Shown here one piece after another: positions 48,441 to 52,693 of a DNA stretch of 64,000 nt. Origin of the DNA: Luteibacter mycovicinus (GTDB taxonomy: Bacteria; Pseudomonadota; Gammaproteobacteria; Xanthomonadales; Rhodanobacteraceae); assembly GCF_000745235.1 (NCBI RefSeq), contig NZ_JQNL01000001.1, positions 3,218,001-3,282,000 on the forward strand, read 5' to 3'. The first letter of the stretch is position 1; every line of letters starts with the position of its first letter. The notes below the pieces were generated by a model that was not told the DNA's origin, ran no database searches, and saw only the letters and a list, made by a program, of their open reading frames with translations. Both the position numbers and the translations under genes were made by a program.

Positions 48441-48836
48441 ATGAGCGAAATCCCCGGCGATCTGAAATTTGCAAAAACCCACGAGTGGGTCCGCGTCGAA
48501 CAGGACGGCACGGTCACCGTCGGCATCTCCGACCATGCGCAGGGCGCACTGGGCGATCTGGTCTACGTCGAGTTGCCGGAAGTGGGCAGCAGCGTGCAGG
48601 CAGGCAGCAGCACGGCGGTCGTCGAGTCGGTCAAGGCCGCCTCCGATATCTACGCGCCGGTGTCGGGCGAAGTGACCGAGGTGAACACGGTACTTGCCGA
48701 CAAGCCGGAAACGATCAACGAAGATGCGTACGAGGGTGGCTGGATCTTCAAACTGAAGATCGCAGACAAGAGCGAACTCGACGAGCTGATGACAGCCGAC
48801 GAGTACGCCGAGCATGCCGAGAACGACGACCACTGA
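48441..48836 (+). CDS. gcvH: Glycine cleavage system H protein
   Basis: GcvH (131 residues) carries the aminomethyl group between P and T proteins on a lipoyl lysine. Lys65 in [12 protein letters not shown] is the lipoylation site. [26 protein letters not shown] and [14 protein letters not shown] are the family markers. GAGGAAC precedes the ATG, and a strong terminator follows the stop. gcvP is not in the window. Confidence 0.97.
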
Positions 48837-48890: not shown

Positions 48891-49211
48891 GTCCGGGAGG
48901 GGTCTTCGGCGAAAATTTTTTTTCGCCTCAGTCGTGTTCCGTTCATCCCCGAAATTCGCCTCCCGATGGATGGTGACCGGAGCGACGACGCGCGCTGTCG
49001 CGGTGCGATGCGATTGCGGCGTTTTTTTTGAACGAACAAAAAAACGCCTTTATTTAAGGTGTTTTTTGAACCGCATAAGAGATGCGGTGTGTTTTGAATG
49101 GAAGTCCATTAGTGCCTTGCTAATGCCGAAGGTGCGTCGGGGATAAACCCGGTGGACTTCCCGATCGTCCGGTATGTGTCCGCAACGTCTTCAATTTAGA
49201 GCCAAAATTTA
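48891..49211 (+). ncRNA. Candidate structured RNA or leader region upstream of metJ
   Basis: This gene-free region carries a chain of hairpins. GGCGAAAA/TTTTCGCC lies at 48908-48927. An 11-bp A/T-rich stem with GGC ends lies at 49018-49028 / 49038-49048. CCGCAT/ATGCGG at 49071-49087 is followed by a T-rich stretch. GGAAGTCCA (49100-49108) pairs with TGGACTTCC (49153-49161), with a small internal stem CATTAG/CTAATG competing for two bases. The T-rich hairpins could end a small transcript, and the last structure could be part of a metJ leader. No known riboswitch consensus was recognised. Confidence 0.35.
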
Positions 49212-49240
49212 TTGACAGCGGAAATGTTCAGGAATAGCTT
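49212..49240 (+). promoter_or_regulatory. Possible promoter of the metJ fusion gene
   Basis: A perfect TTGACA (49212-49217) is followed after 17 bases by TAGCTT, a poor -10. A single MetJ-box-like CAACGTCT occurs 20 bases upstream (49183-49190), but a tandem repeat, as MetJ operators need, is not seen. Confidence 0.35.
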
Positions 49241-49267: not shown

Positions 49268-49909
49268 ATGGAAACAGGAAAATTCGTCAGGCCGTATGTG
49301 GAGCATGGTTCGAAAGCGGGTGCGGTACGCAAGATCACCGTCTCGATTCCGCTGCACATACTCCGCCTGCTATCCGATGAACGTACTCGCCGCCAGGTGA
49401 ACAATTTGAGGCACGCTACGAACAGCGACCTGCTGGTCGAAGCGTTCCTCCACGCTTTTACTGGGCAACCACTGCCAACTGATGAGGAGCTGAAGAGAAC
49501 TATGGCCACTGCCAAGAAAGCCACTGCCAAGAAGTCCGCCGCCAAGAAAGCGACGAAGAAGTCCACCGTAAAGAAGACGGCCGCGCGCAAGTCGCCGGCG
49601 AAGAAGGCTTCGACCCGTAAGGTCGCGGTCAAGAAGGCTGCGACCCGCAAGTCGCCGGCCAAGAAGGCCACCGCCAAGAAGGCTGCGGTCAAGAAGGTCG
49701 CCCGCAAGGCGTCCACCCGTAAGGTCGCTGCCAAGAAGGCAGTCAAGAAGGCTTCCGTAAAGAAGGCCTCCGTCAAGAAGACCGCTCGCAAGGCTGCTCC
49801 GCGTAAGGCTGCCGCCCCGCGTAAGGCTGCCTCGAAGAAGGTCGCCGCAGCGAAGGTCGTTCGCGCGACCAAGACCGCCAAGGCACCCCGGGCCGCCAAG
49901 GCCAAGTAA
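49268..49909 (+). CDS. metJ: MetJ methionine repressor fused to a histone H1-like Lys/Ala tail
   Basis: Residues 1-78 are a clear MetJ ribbon-helix-helix repressor: [20 protein letters not shown], then [20 protein letters not shown] and [13 protein letters not shown]. The E. coli DNA-contact Lys/Thr pair (here Lys22, Thr24) and SAM-pocket residues Arg41, Glu58 and Phe64 are kept. E. coli MetJ is 104 residues. Here the final part is replaced from residue 79 by about 135 residues of [11 protein letters not shown] and ARKA repeats, like AlgP and bacterial H1 proteins. The frame is continuous. ATG 49268 is chosen by alignment with MetJ; TTG 49241 is also possible. An internal ATG at 49502, with GAGGAG upstream, could yield the basic tail alone. 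The expected role is SAM-dependent repression of met genes plus non-specific DNA binding. Confidence 0.88.
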
Positions 49910-51331: not shown

Positions 51332-52693
51332 TTACTCCGGCTTCTTCTTTTTCTTCACCGCCTTGACCGGTGCCGCCTTCTTCACGGGCGCCGCCTTGCC
51401 TTTCGCTTTGGTTTTCGTGGCAGGCGCCGCCTTGGCCACCGGCGCCGCGCGCACGCTTCCTTCCACACCCGCCCAGTCGACGTGGTTGAGCCCAAGCAGG
51501 CTGTCGAACACCATCGGCATCAGACCCGCCGGGACCGGACCCGCACCGTTCCACATGGTCACGACACCGGCGTGATACTTGGGAAAGAAGCCGATCATCG
51601 TGCGATAGCCAGAGACCGCGCCCGCATGGAAGATCAGGTCTTCATTGGCGTACTTGAATACGCGCCAGCCCAGCGCGTAGTGCGCGTCGGTGACACGCGC
51701 GCGTCGCCAGGGCAGCGAGTGAACTTCCGACGGCGTGGCCACCTCGGGCGCGTGCAGTACGTCCAGCGATGGCGTCGGCAGGACGTCCGGACGTCCGCCC
51801 ATCTGGGCCATCAGCCACTGCTCCATGTCGCGCAGGCTGGCGTTGACGCCAGCGGCGGGGGCGACACGGTAGTAACTGTCGTTGGGCTCGTAGGGAATCC
51901 AGTTGTGCGGACCGCCGCGATGCGGGCGTGCCCAGCTCTTGCTGGCTTCGAGCGCGTCGCGGCCGTAGCTGGCGGTGGTCATGCCCAGCGGGGCGAAGAT
52001 GCGGCGTTCGACCTGTCGAAAGAAATAATCGCCGGTGGTGGCGTAGATGACGTCGCCGATCATGCTGAAGGCGACGTTCTGGTAGCCGTAGCACGCGCCC
52101 ACCTTGCAGGAGAGGTCCACCTCGTCCAGTTTGCGGACGAGCTCCTCGTAGGGAGCGTCGGCCTCGAGCATGTTGTCGTACGTGTTGCGCGGCAGACCGA
52201 GGCGCTGGCCGAGGATGTCGCGCACGGTCGCCTGCTGCGCCGCCTCCATGTCCTTGAGCTTGAAATACGGAATGGTGTCGATCAGCTTGGTGTCCCAGCT
52301 GAGAAAGCCTTCACGGACCAGCACGGCGGTGACGCCCGTGGCGAAGGCCTTCGACAGCGACGCCAGGCGGAACACGGTTTCCGGTGTGGCGGCTTCTTTC
52401 GTCTTCGCGTTGGCGTAGCCGATGGCGCGCTCGTACACGACCTTGTCGTCGACGATAACGGCGGTGACGATCGCGGGGGCGGCGTCGCGGGCTTCGGCCG
52501 CGTCCATCCAGCGGTTGTAGTTCTCGATCGTTTCCTTCACGCGCTCCGCAGGCAGCTTTTCCGACGTCGGGTCGACATGGACGACCGGGGGTTTCTGCGG
52601 CGGCTTCTGCGGCGGCGGAGCGGCGAGGGCGAAGGGGGCGGTGGCGGCGCAGGCGAGCGCACAGGCCAGCAGGGAGGCGGATCGAAACGACAT
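51332..52693 (-). CDS. Secreted serine beta-lactamase-family hydrolase with basic C-terminal tail
   Basis: This 453-residue exported protein has a signal peptide ending near ALA (residue 25). The class C/penicillin-binding fold shows the SxxK nucleophile Ser112-Lys115 in ASLSKAF, a tyrosine motif in CYGYQNVAF, and FHAGAVSGY in place of the KTG box. The final 30 or so residues are a Pro/Ala/Lys tail ending in a run of five lysines, unusual for this family. It is more likely an esterase or D-aminopeptidase-like enzyme than a resistance beta-lactamase. ATG 52693 gives the best signal peptide. Confidence 0.87.
   Translation of the reverse strand: MSFRSASLLACALACAATAPFALAAPPPQKPPQKPPVVHVDPTSEKLPAERVKETIENYNRWMDAAEARDAAPAIVTAVIVDDKVVYERAIGYANAKTKEAATPETVFRLASLSKAFATGVTAVLVREGFLSWDTKLIDTIPYFKLKDMEAAQQATVRDILGQRLGLPRNTYDNMLEADAPYEELVRKLDEVDLSCKVGACYGYQNVAFSMIGDVIYATTGDYFFRQVERRIFAPLGMTTASYGRDALEASKSWARPHRGGPHNWIPYEPNDSYYRVAPAAGVNASLRDMEQWLMAQMGGRPDVLPTPSLDVLHAPEVATPSEVHSLPWRRARVTDAHYALGWRVFKYANEDLIFHAGAVSGYRTMIGFFPKYHAGVVTMWNGAGPVPAGLMPMVFDSLLGLNHVDWAGVEGSVRAAPVAKAAPATKTKAKGKAAPVKKAAPVKAVKKKKKPE

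Follow-up and report, generated by a model that had tools for sequence, protein, structure and literature searches.

The window, a 64,000-nucleotide stretch of the Luteibacter mycovicinus genome, carries a gene in which a MetJ repressor is joined to a lysine- and alanine-rich tail. The features of the locus, all on the forward strand, are these:

48441 to 48836, forward strand: gcvH, the upstream neighbour of metJ-H1, which served as synteny anchor
49212 to 49240, forward strand: promoter-like TTGACA-N17-TAGCTT before metJ, a consensus match that is kept in relatives
49268 to 49909, forward strand: the metJ-H1 fusion gene, 213 codons plus stop
49268 to 49501, forward strand: the MetJ core, residues 1-78, with the equivalents of E. 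coli Glu39 and Arg42 kept
49460 to 49504, forward strand: a conserved nucleotide element, ACTGGGCAACCACTGCCAACTGATGAGGAGCTG...ATG, which ends in an internal ATG and was recognised from codon conservation and from a similar stretch before standalone H1-like genes
49484 to 49489, forward strand: GAGGAG, Shine-Dalgarno-like in sequence, 12 nt before ATG 49502
49502 to 49909, forward strand: the H1-like Lys/Ala-rich part, residues 79-213, which would be the free H1-like protein if translation started at ATG 49502

The 213 residues encoded by 49268-49909 are read without an internal stop. Membership in the MetJ family is clear from matches above the curated cut-offs in both Pfam (PF01340, residues 4-88, 125.9 bits, cut-off 25) and NCBIfam (MetJ equivalog NF003622, residues 4-97, 133.1 bits, cut-off 110), and residues 3-87 align with E. 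coli MetJ (PDB 1CMA). The E. coli-type C-terminal region after the LP segment is absent from the fusion, with the tail in its place. This tail, residues 79-213 (135 aa), is 39% K+R and 32% A, and has no acidic residue. Because it scored under the curated cut-offs of HC2 (PF07382; 29.2 bits, cut-off 40) and hist_H1_lk_Burk (NF038053; 28.8 bits, cut-off 80), "H1-like" is used here as a description of tail composition. The gene is the sole MetJ of the complete 4.6-Mb window genome, and the fused proteins carry the name MetJ in the source databases. A structure prediction for the whole protein (mean pLDDT 49.3, pTM 0.14) was set aside, and no conclusion rests on it. Beyond the metJ tail, the window genome holds six more HC2-like stretches (L122-L128), two of which are one neighbouring pair in one frame; one is part of an exonuclease-like protein (L108) and adjoins a two-box site of the kind described below. 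A beta-lactamase-fold protein at 51335-52693 of the window, reverse strand, has a short lysine/alanine-rich C-terminal tail of its own. Before the metJ promoter, at 49099-49163, lies a stable branched hairpin (z -3.66 for 49060-49170). As it precedes the TTGACA site, it was rejected as a metJ leader element; the stretch had no Rfam match at E 1, and a search with 49020-49170 of other Luteibacter loci did not find the hairpin, only a neighbouring terminator-like piece (query 1-54) in six loci.

The fusion is a family trait. Of 197 Rhodanobacteraceae genomes searched, 193 have MetJ, with 26 of 26 genera represented, and 77 metJ genes of the family were read in context, of which two cut by contig ends were left out. 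All 75 uncut genes have the tail in frame. Given these counts, the fusion is neither a product of chance nor an assembly error. The in-frame fusion of MetJ to an H1-like Lys/Ala tail, which the earlier note had described from the letters of the window, is borne out by these genes and by the Pfam and NCBIfam matches, and the frameshift or assembly error joining two genes, which the note had named as the finding that would undo it, is excluded. A programmed frameshift at the MetJ/tail junction was also considered and ruled out, the two parts sharing a single frame in 75/75 genes. The tails of the 75 genes are 29-50% K+R and, with the conserved LP as starting point, measure 42 to 317 residues. 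Tail length, which the earlier note had wished to see compared between strains, is thus variable. Among the matches listed, the fused form lies on contigs of Dyella, Rhodanobacter, Frateuria, Luteibacter, Dokdonella and Oleiagrimonas.

Outside the family the picture is different. Across the order, MetJ was found in 53 of 200 genomes, 34 from Rhodanobacteraceae, 13 from family f179 and 6 from f182; none of the 53 belongs to f173 or to f2, the latter identified as the Xanthomonadaceae by the last 75 nt of the L088 leader, which agree with Pseudoxanthomonas daejeonensis. In a class-wide sample MetJ was present in 3 of 274 genomes, the window genome counted in. The architecture, which the earlier note had proposed to search for across the Xanthomonadales, is found in the Rhodanobacteraceae and not in the Xanthomonadaceae genomes examined, which are without MetJ and have the H1-like protein alone. 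The seven MetJ genes read from f179 and f182 (L034-L037, L084-L086) stop 9 to 25 residues after LP and have no basic tail. Because these tail-less genes are also without most of the E. coli-type C-terminal region, we treat that region as variable in the MetJ family.

Is the core still a repressor? Across the 75 genes its residues are kept while the codons vary. Glu39 and Arg42, for which PMC2775130 describes SAM-contact roles in MetJ, are present in the window and retained in 62 of the 75 genes; both are replaced in 12 genes from six genera, and Arg42 alone is replaced in L067. The genes with replaced SAM-contact residues are L038-L046, L059, L060, L067 and L076. Because both contacts are replaced in 12/75 genes, SAM control is possibly not general; met boxes before metX persist in the genera concerned, and in those lacking both contacts the co-repressor may differ or matter less. 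A search of open-licence PMC papers for MetJ with R42C found none.

The window genome has tandem met boxes ahead of a gene taken here to be metX, a name resting on general likeness, an alpha/beta-hydrolase fold and a SAM-I riboswitch. To this gene the best match was collected from one genome per genus in 26 genera; the matches L156-L158 were merely 41-46% identical, and outgroups 44-46%. A tandem AGACGTCT pair precedes metX in every one of the 26 genera, scoring 13 to 16 of 16 matches (p 0.01 or less when the same 640 nt are shuffled 100 times); the site of the window genome is no independent evidence, since it was itself found by box search. Upstream of metX in the MetJ-less genomes (f2, f173), 9 or 10 of 16 box matches are reached in 4/4, and tandem met boxes were found in 0/4. 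A SAM-I riboswitch was present at all 20 metX loci scanned, 16 from MetJ genomes and 4 from MetJ-less ones, out of 30 loci. At L113 1256-1520 and at the metX loci L129-L151 and L156-L158, MetJ operators and a SAM-I riboswitch appear as two SAM controls in series. With both at metX, SAM acts through RNA and, by inference, through MetJ. Because the metX boxes, beside a SAM-I riboswitch, occur in 26/26 genera with MetJ versus 0/4 MetJ-less genomes, the core of the fusion very probably still acts as MetJ.

Genome-wide, boxes with up to two mismatches in 27 MetJ genomes numbered 108 versus 10 for the reversed pattern, and 26 of the 27 genomes had at least one such box (G014 had 0); nine MetJ-less genomes had 0 versus 7 for the reversed pattern. 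At three mismatches the window genome has 17 boxes, eight of them within repeated copies, versus 6 for the reversed pattern. Among the box sites looked at, four in four genomes (L111 in the window genome, L312, L316 and L321) precede similar TonB-dependent receptors, of which L111 and L312 were tested against Pfam Plug; this receptor is a candidate MetJ target. One box site precedes aspartate kinase, and many others have no obvious methionine link. Upstream of metJ itself, tandem boxes at -200 to -160 (p 0.05 or less) were found in 60 of 66 non-Luteibacter rows. In the other six (L031, L041, L058, L064, L065, L076) clear met boxes at -200 to -160 were absent, and the Luteibacter rows (L001 and L047-L056, the window among them) had them in 0 of 11. 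In most other genera the boxes stand at about -165 to -193 of metJ.

These results bear on two alternative views of the protein. The earlier note had supposed that the fusion could be a nucleoid-compacting or long-range-sliding factor linked to SAM level. H1-like proteins bind DNA non-specifically, and a 135-residue tail with 39% K+R and no acidic residue would suit such a factor. Operators that are canonical, enriched and conserved argue instead for a site-specific repressor, and this proposal is an unlikely one. The note had also allowed that only the tail might be translated, from 49502, which would leave the tail as the actual product and reduce MetJ to a leader frame in decay, with little translation or none. 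That Xanthomonadaceae and f173 possess an H1-like gene without MetJ fits such decay, but the MetJ part is held at the protein level in 75 genes while its codons drift, the frame is intact in 75/75 with no break, and met boxes are retained only in MetJ-bearing genomes. MetJ has further been quantified by proteomics in Rhodanobacter thiooxydans FW510-R12, where, in the portion of the source available, it rises with nitrate while four methionine enzymes fall, the form of MetJ being unstated there (PMC12146267). Among the matches listed, R. thiooxydans LCS2 (L172) carries the fused form. We regard a decaying MetJ as very improbable; ATG 49502 appears rather to be a conserved internal start beside the full-length fusion.

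In the ~45 nt of the metJ part that lead up to ATG 49502, the nucleotide sequence is almost frozen, rare codons included. When codons of the 75 genes are numbered relative to the LP in FTGQPLP, drift prevails at codons -62 to -7, and near-freezing sets in at -6, with ACT GGG CAA CCA CTG CCA ACT GAT GAG GAG CTG AGA ... ATG. The identical codon is found in 75/75 fused genes for ACT, 74/75 for GGG, 74/75 for CCA (codon -1), 75/75 for GAG (codon +3) and 67/67 for AGA where the residue is Arg. In metX of the same genera, the shares of the same codons in their codon families are 4.1% for ACT, 6.9% for GGG, 2.8% for CCA and 0.0% for AGA. With one genome per genus, excess synonymous identity was 0.28 for the element versus -0.03 over the remaining core (Mann-Whitney p 5e-6, a value computed on neighbouring codons and related genera, which lack independence). 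The 12-codon window that ranks highest for synonymous identity begins at codon -6. In the tail-less MetJs of families f182 and f179, as in two MetJs of enteric type, the same or a similar peptide is spelled with other codons.

The element is followed by an in-frame ATG in 74 of the 75 genes, at a gap from GAGGAG of 12 nt (64 genes) or 9 nt (10 genes). The sole gene without it, L067, has GTG instead, and most of its element codons are changed. RNA folding of the stretch from -35 to +15 gave a mean of -5.8 kcal/mol versus -11.3 for other metJ windows in 25 genera, with equally open control windows making up 7% on average (0 to 23% by genus) and with the G+C of the stretch slightly lower than that of the controls (0.53 vs 0.57). 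Judged by sequence, there is a conserved internal start codon with a ribosome-binding signal; the element, the ATG, GAGGAG and the low RNA structure are the marks expected of a ribosome start site. Counted against an internal start is the GAGGAG-ATG gap of the window, which at 12 nt exceeds the 6-10 nt of the standalone genes.

To these standalone genes we now turn. A gcvH-anchored search of 20 genomes of the order found a standalone H1-like gene (MATxKK...) nearby in 4/4 genomes of f2 and f173; in the other 16 genomes none was found within about 1.5 kb on each side, one stretch being shorter. In all four f2 and f173 genomes the standalone gene starts at the matching ATG and has the element and the promoter of the fusion gene. 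TTGACA lies 279-321 nt before the ATG in the four leaders and 290 nt before it in the window, and directly before the ATG the f173 leaders have ACTGGGCAAC...ACTAACGAGGAGCTAAGAC and the f2 leaders ACTGGGC...CACTGACGAGGARC. An nhmmer model of the fused element matched the two f173 leaders (1.1e-10 and 2e-9); the best E for shuffled leaders was 1.7, in a control where the model holds five tail codons missing from the shuffled set. A second model, of the rest of metJ (model B), found no trace in the MetJ-less leaders upstream of the element.

By a pattern scan, the element was also seen before standalone genes of Xanthomonas, Stenotrophomonas, Lysobacter and Pseudoxanthomonas, among the matches listed. 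The scan gave at least 118 matches, comprising at least 57 fused genes, at least 53 basic frames with no MetJ before them (L194, at least, being a fused gene cut by a contig end) and at least 8 non-basic frames. While GAGGAG and ATG are present in these matches by construction, CTGGGC is not, and it occurs in 50 of 51 leaders among the matches listed versus 3.7% of shuffles. The leaders of the standalone genes (L087-L089, L092 and the pattern-scan loci) are long, with 279-403 nt from TTGACA to ATG in the 22 measured, and hold several conserved blocks. Consensus folding of 23 MetJ-less leaders gave almost no common structure (-3.9), L164 being empty in the alignment. A search of open-licence PMC for H1-like proteins of Stenotrophomonas or Xanthomonas gave nothing relevant among the matches listed.

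Because Xanthomonadaceae without MetJ keep a standalone gene that shares both the promoter and the sequence before the ATG, ATG 49502 is, by sequence comparison, the orthologous start of that gene. This comparison also bears on how the frozen codons are to be read. The locus could have a single product, the fusion, with the 45 nt serving at the coding level, for example in a rare-codon pause, and with Met79 a mere residue; the element is indeed rich in codons rare in metX of the same genera, and it sits at the domain boundary. Yet it is individual rare codons that are fixed, ACT and AGA among them, and not rareness alone, and neither the conserved ATG nor the low RNA structure is accounted for by a pause. 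Moreover, the element is kept as an untranslated H1 leader in MetJ-less relatives, and since it does not code for MetJ before the standalone genes, codon speed cannot explain its conservation. A single product is accordingly quite unlikely.

Given the orthologous start at ATG 49502, the most likely output of the locus is two proteins: a MetJ-H1 fusion repressor and a free H1-like protein from ATG 49502; we give this reading a probability of about 0.75. It is built on the fusion, its conservation, the operators, the element and the orthologous start, which the sequences themselves show. Translation from 49268 would yield a MetJ repressor with a long positive H1-like tail standing where the usual C-terminal region would be. 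Its core would bind tandem met boxes and repress methionine genes such as metX, presumably with SAM. The tail most likely adds non-specific DNA contacts, perhaps replacing the lost C-terminal region. At the internal ATG 49502, ribosomes would start, or restart, to make a free H1-like nucleoid protein, the element serving as its ribosome-binding region, and in Xanthomonadaceae its orthologue would be the standalone H1-like gene. Somewhat short of even odds, in our view, is a further proposal: that methionine status sets the amounts of tethered MetJ-H1 and of free H1-like protein, the H1 ribosome start lying inside the repressor's coding sequence, and that the 3' end of metJ outlived the loss of MetJ in Xanthomonadaceae as an untranslated H1 leader. 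Met boxes precede metJ in most of the genera read, Luteibacter excepted, as a role for methionine status would have it.

The history of the locus can be read in either direction, and both leave two products. The fusion may already have been present in the common ancestor, after which Xanthomonadaceae and f173 would have lost the MetJ frame but retained the promoter, with the final piece of metJ serving as H1 leader; we favour this loss direction at about three to one. Alternatively, the H1-like gene and its leader are the older, and metJ was inserted behind their promoter, so that the end of the leader became the 3' end of metJ. A promoter common to fused and standalone genes would follow from such an insertion, and so would the middle of the MetJ-less leaders, in which model B found no metJ trace, a result that weakens the loss scenario. 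The 11-residue peptide of the element, on the other hand, is also present in tail-less f182 MetJs, and nearly so in those of f179. The element therefore most likely began as metJ coding sequence, as a leader is unlikely to have spelled that peptide in order by accident, and the insertion is rather improbable.

The published record places MetJ elsewhere. In the portions of the sources available, a 2011 survey confines MetJ to five other gammaproteobacterial orders (PMC3228920), a 2014 survey lists it in none of four Xanthomonadales (PMC4239095), and Xanthomonas campestris is said to be without metJ (PMC6230763). In contrast to the surveys, MetJ is near-universal in the Rhodanobacteraceae, basic-tailed, and acts at a gene also under a SAM-I riboswitch. 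No description of a MetJ-H1 fusion was found in open-licence PMC literature, in agreement with the earlier note's view that this form of MetJ was undescribed. If two products are indeed made, an H1-like chain both tethered and free in one cell is a natural experiment on the role of such tails, and the supply of a nucleoid protein is coupled to a metabolite sensor. The last piece of a coding gene outliving that gene as the leader of another would be a clean example of how coding sequence can become regulatory.

Other bacterial DNA-binding proteins that carry lysine-rich tails are already known. Streptomyces TopA and HupS, as described in the source text available, join a folded DNA-binding domain to a lysine-rich extension, as the fusion does; none of the tailed proteins described there, however, is a metabolite-responsive ribbon-helix-helix repressor, and no internal start is reported for them. 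The standalone H1-like protein (MATKKAAKK...) of Xanthomonas, Stenotrophomonas, Lysobacter and Pseudoxanthomonas shares the tail type, the matching start codon, the element before the ATG and the promoter; it differs in having no MetJ in front and a leader that, upstream of the element, is not recognisably metJ. The short MetJs of f179 and f182 have the same core and likewise miss the E. coli-type C-terminal region, but are without the basic tail and without any frozen codons. E. coli MetJ (PDB 1CMA, 1CMC) is like the fusion in its core, aligned over 3-87, and in its operator type, tandem AGACGTCT; in contrast to it, the fusion lacks the C-terminal region after LP, carries an H1-like tail, and acts beside a SAM-I riboswitch at metX.
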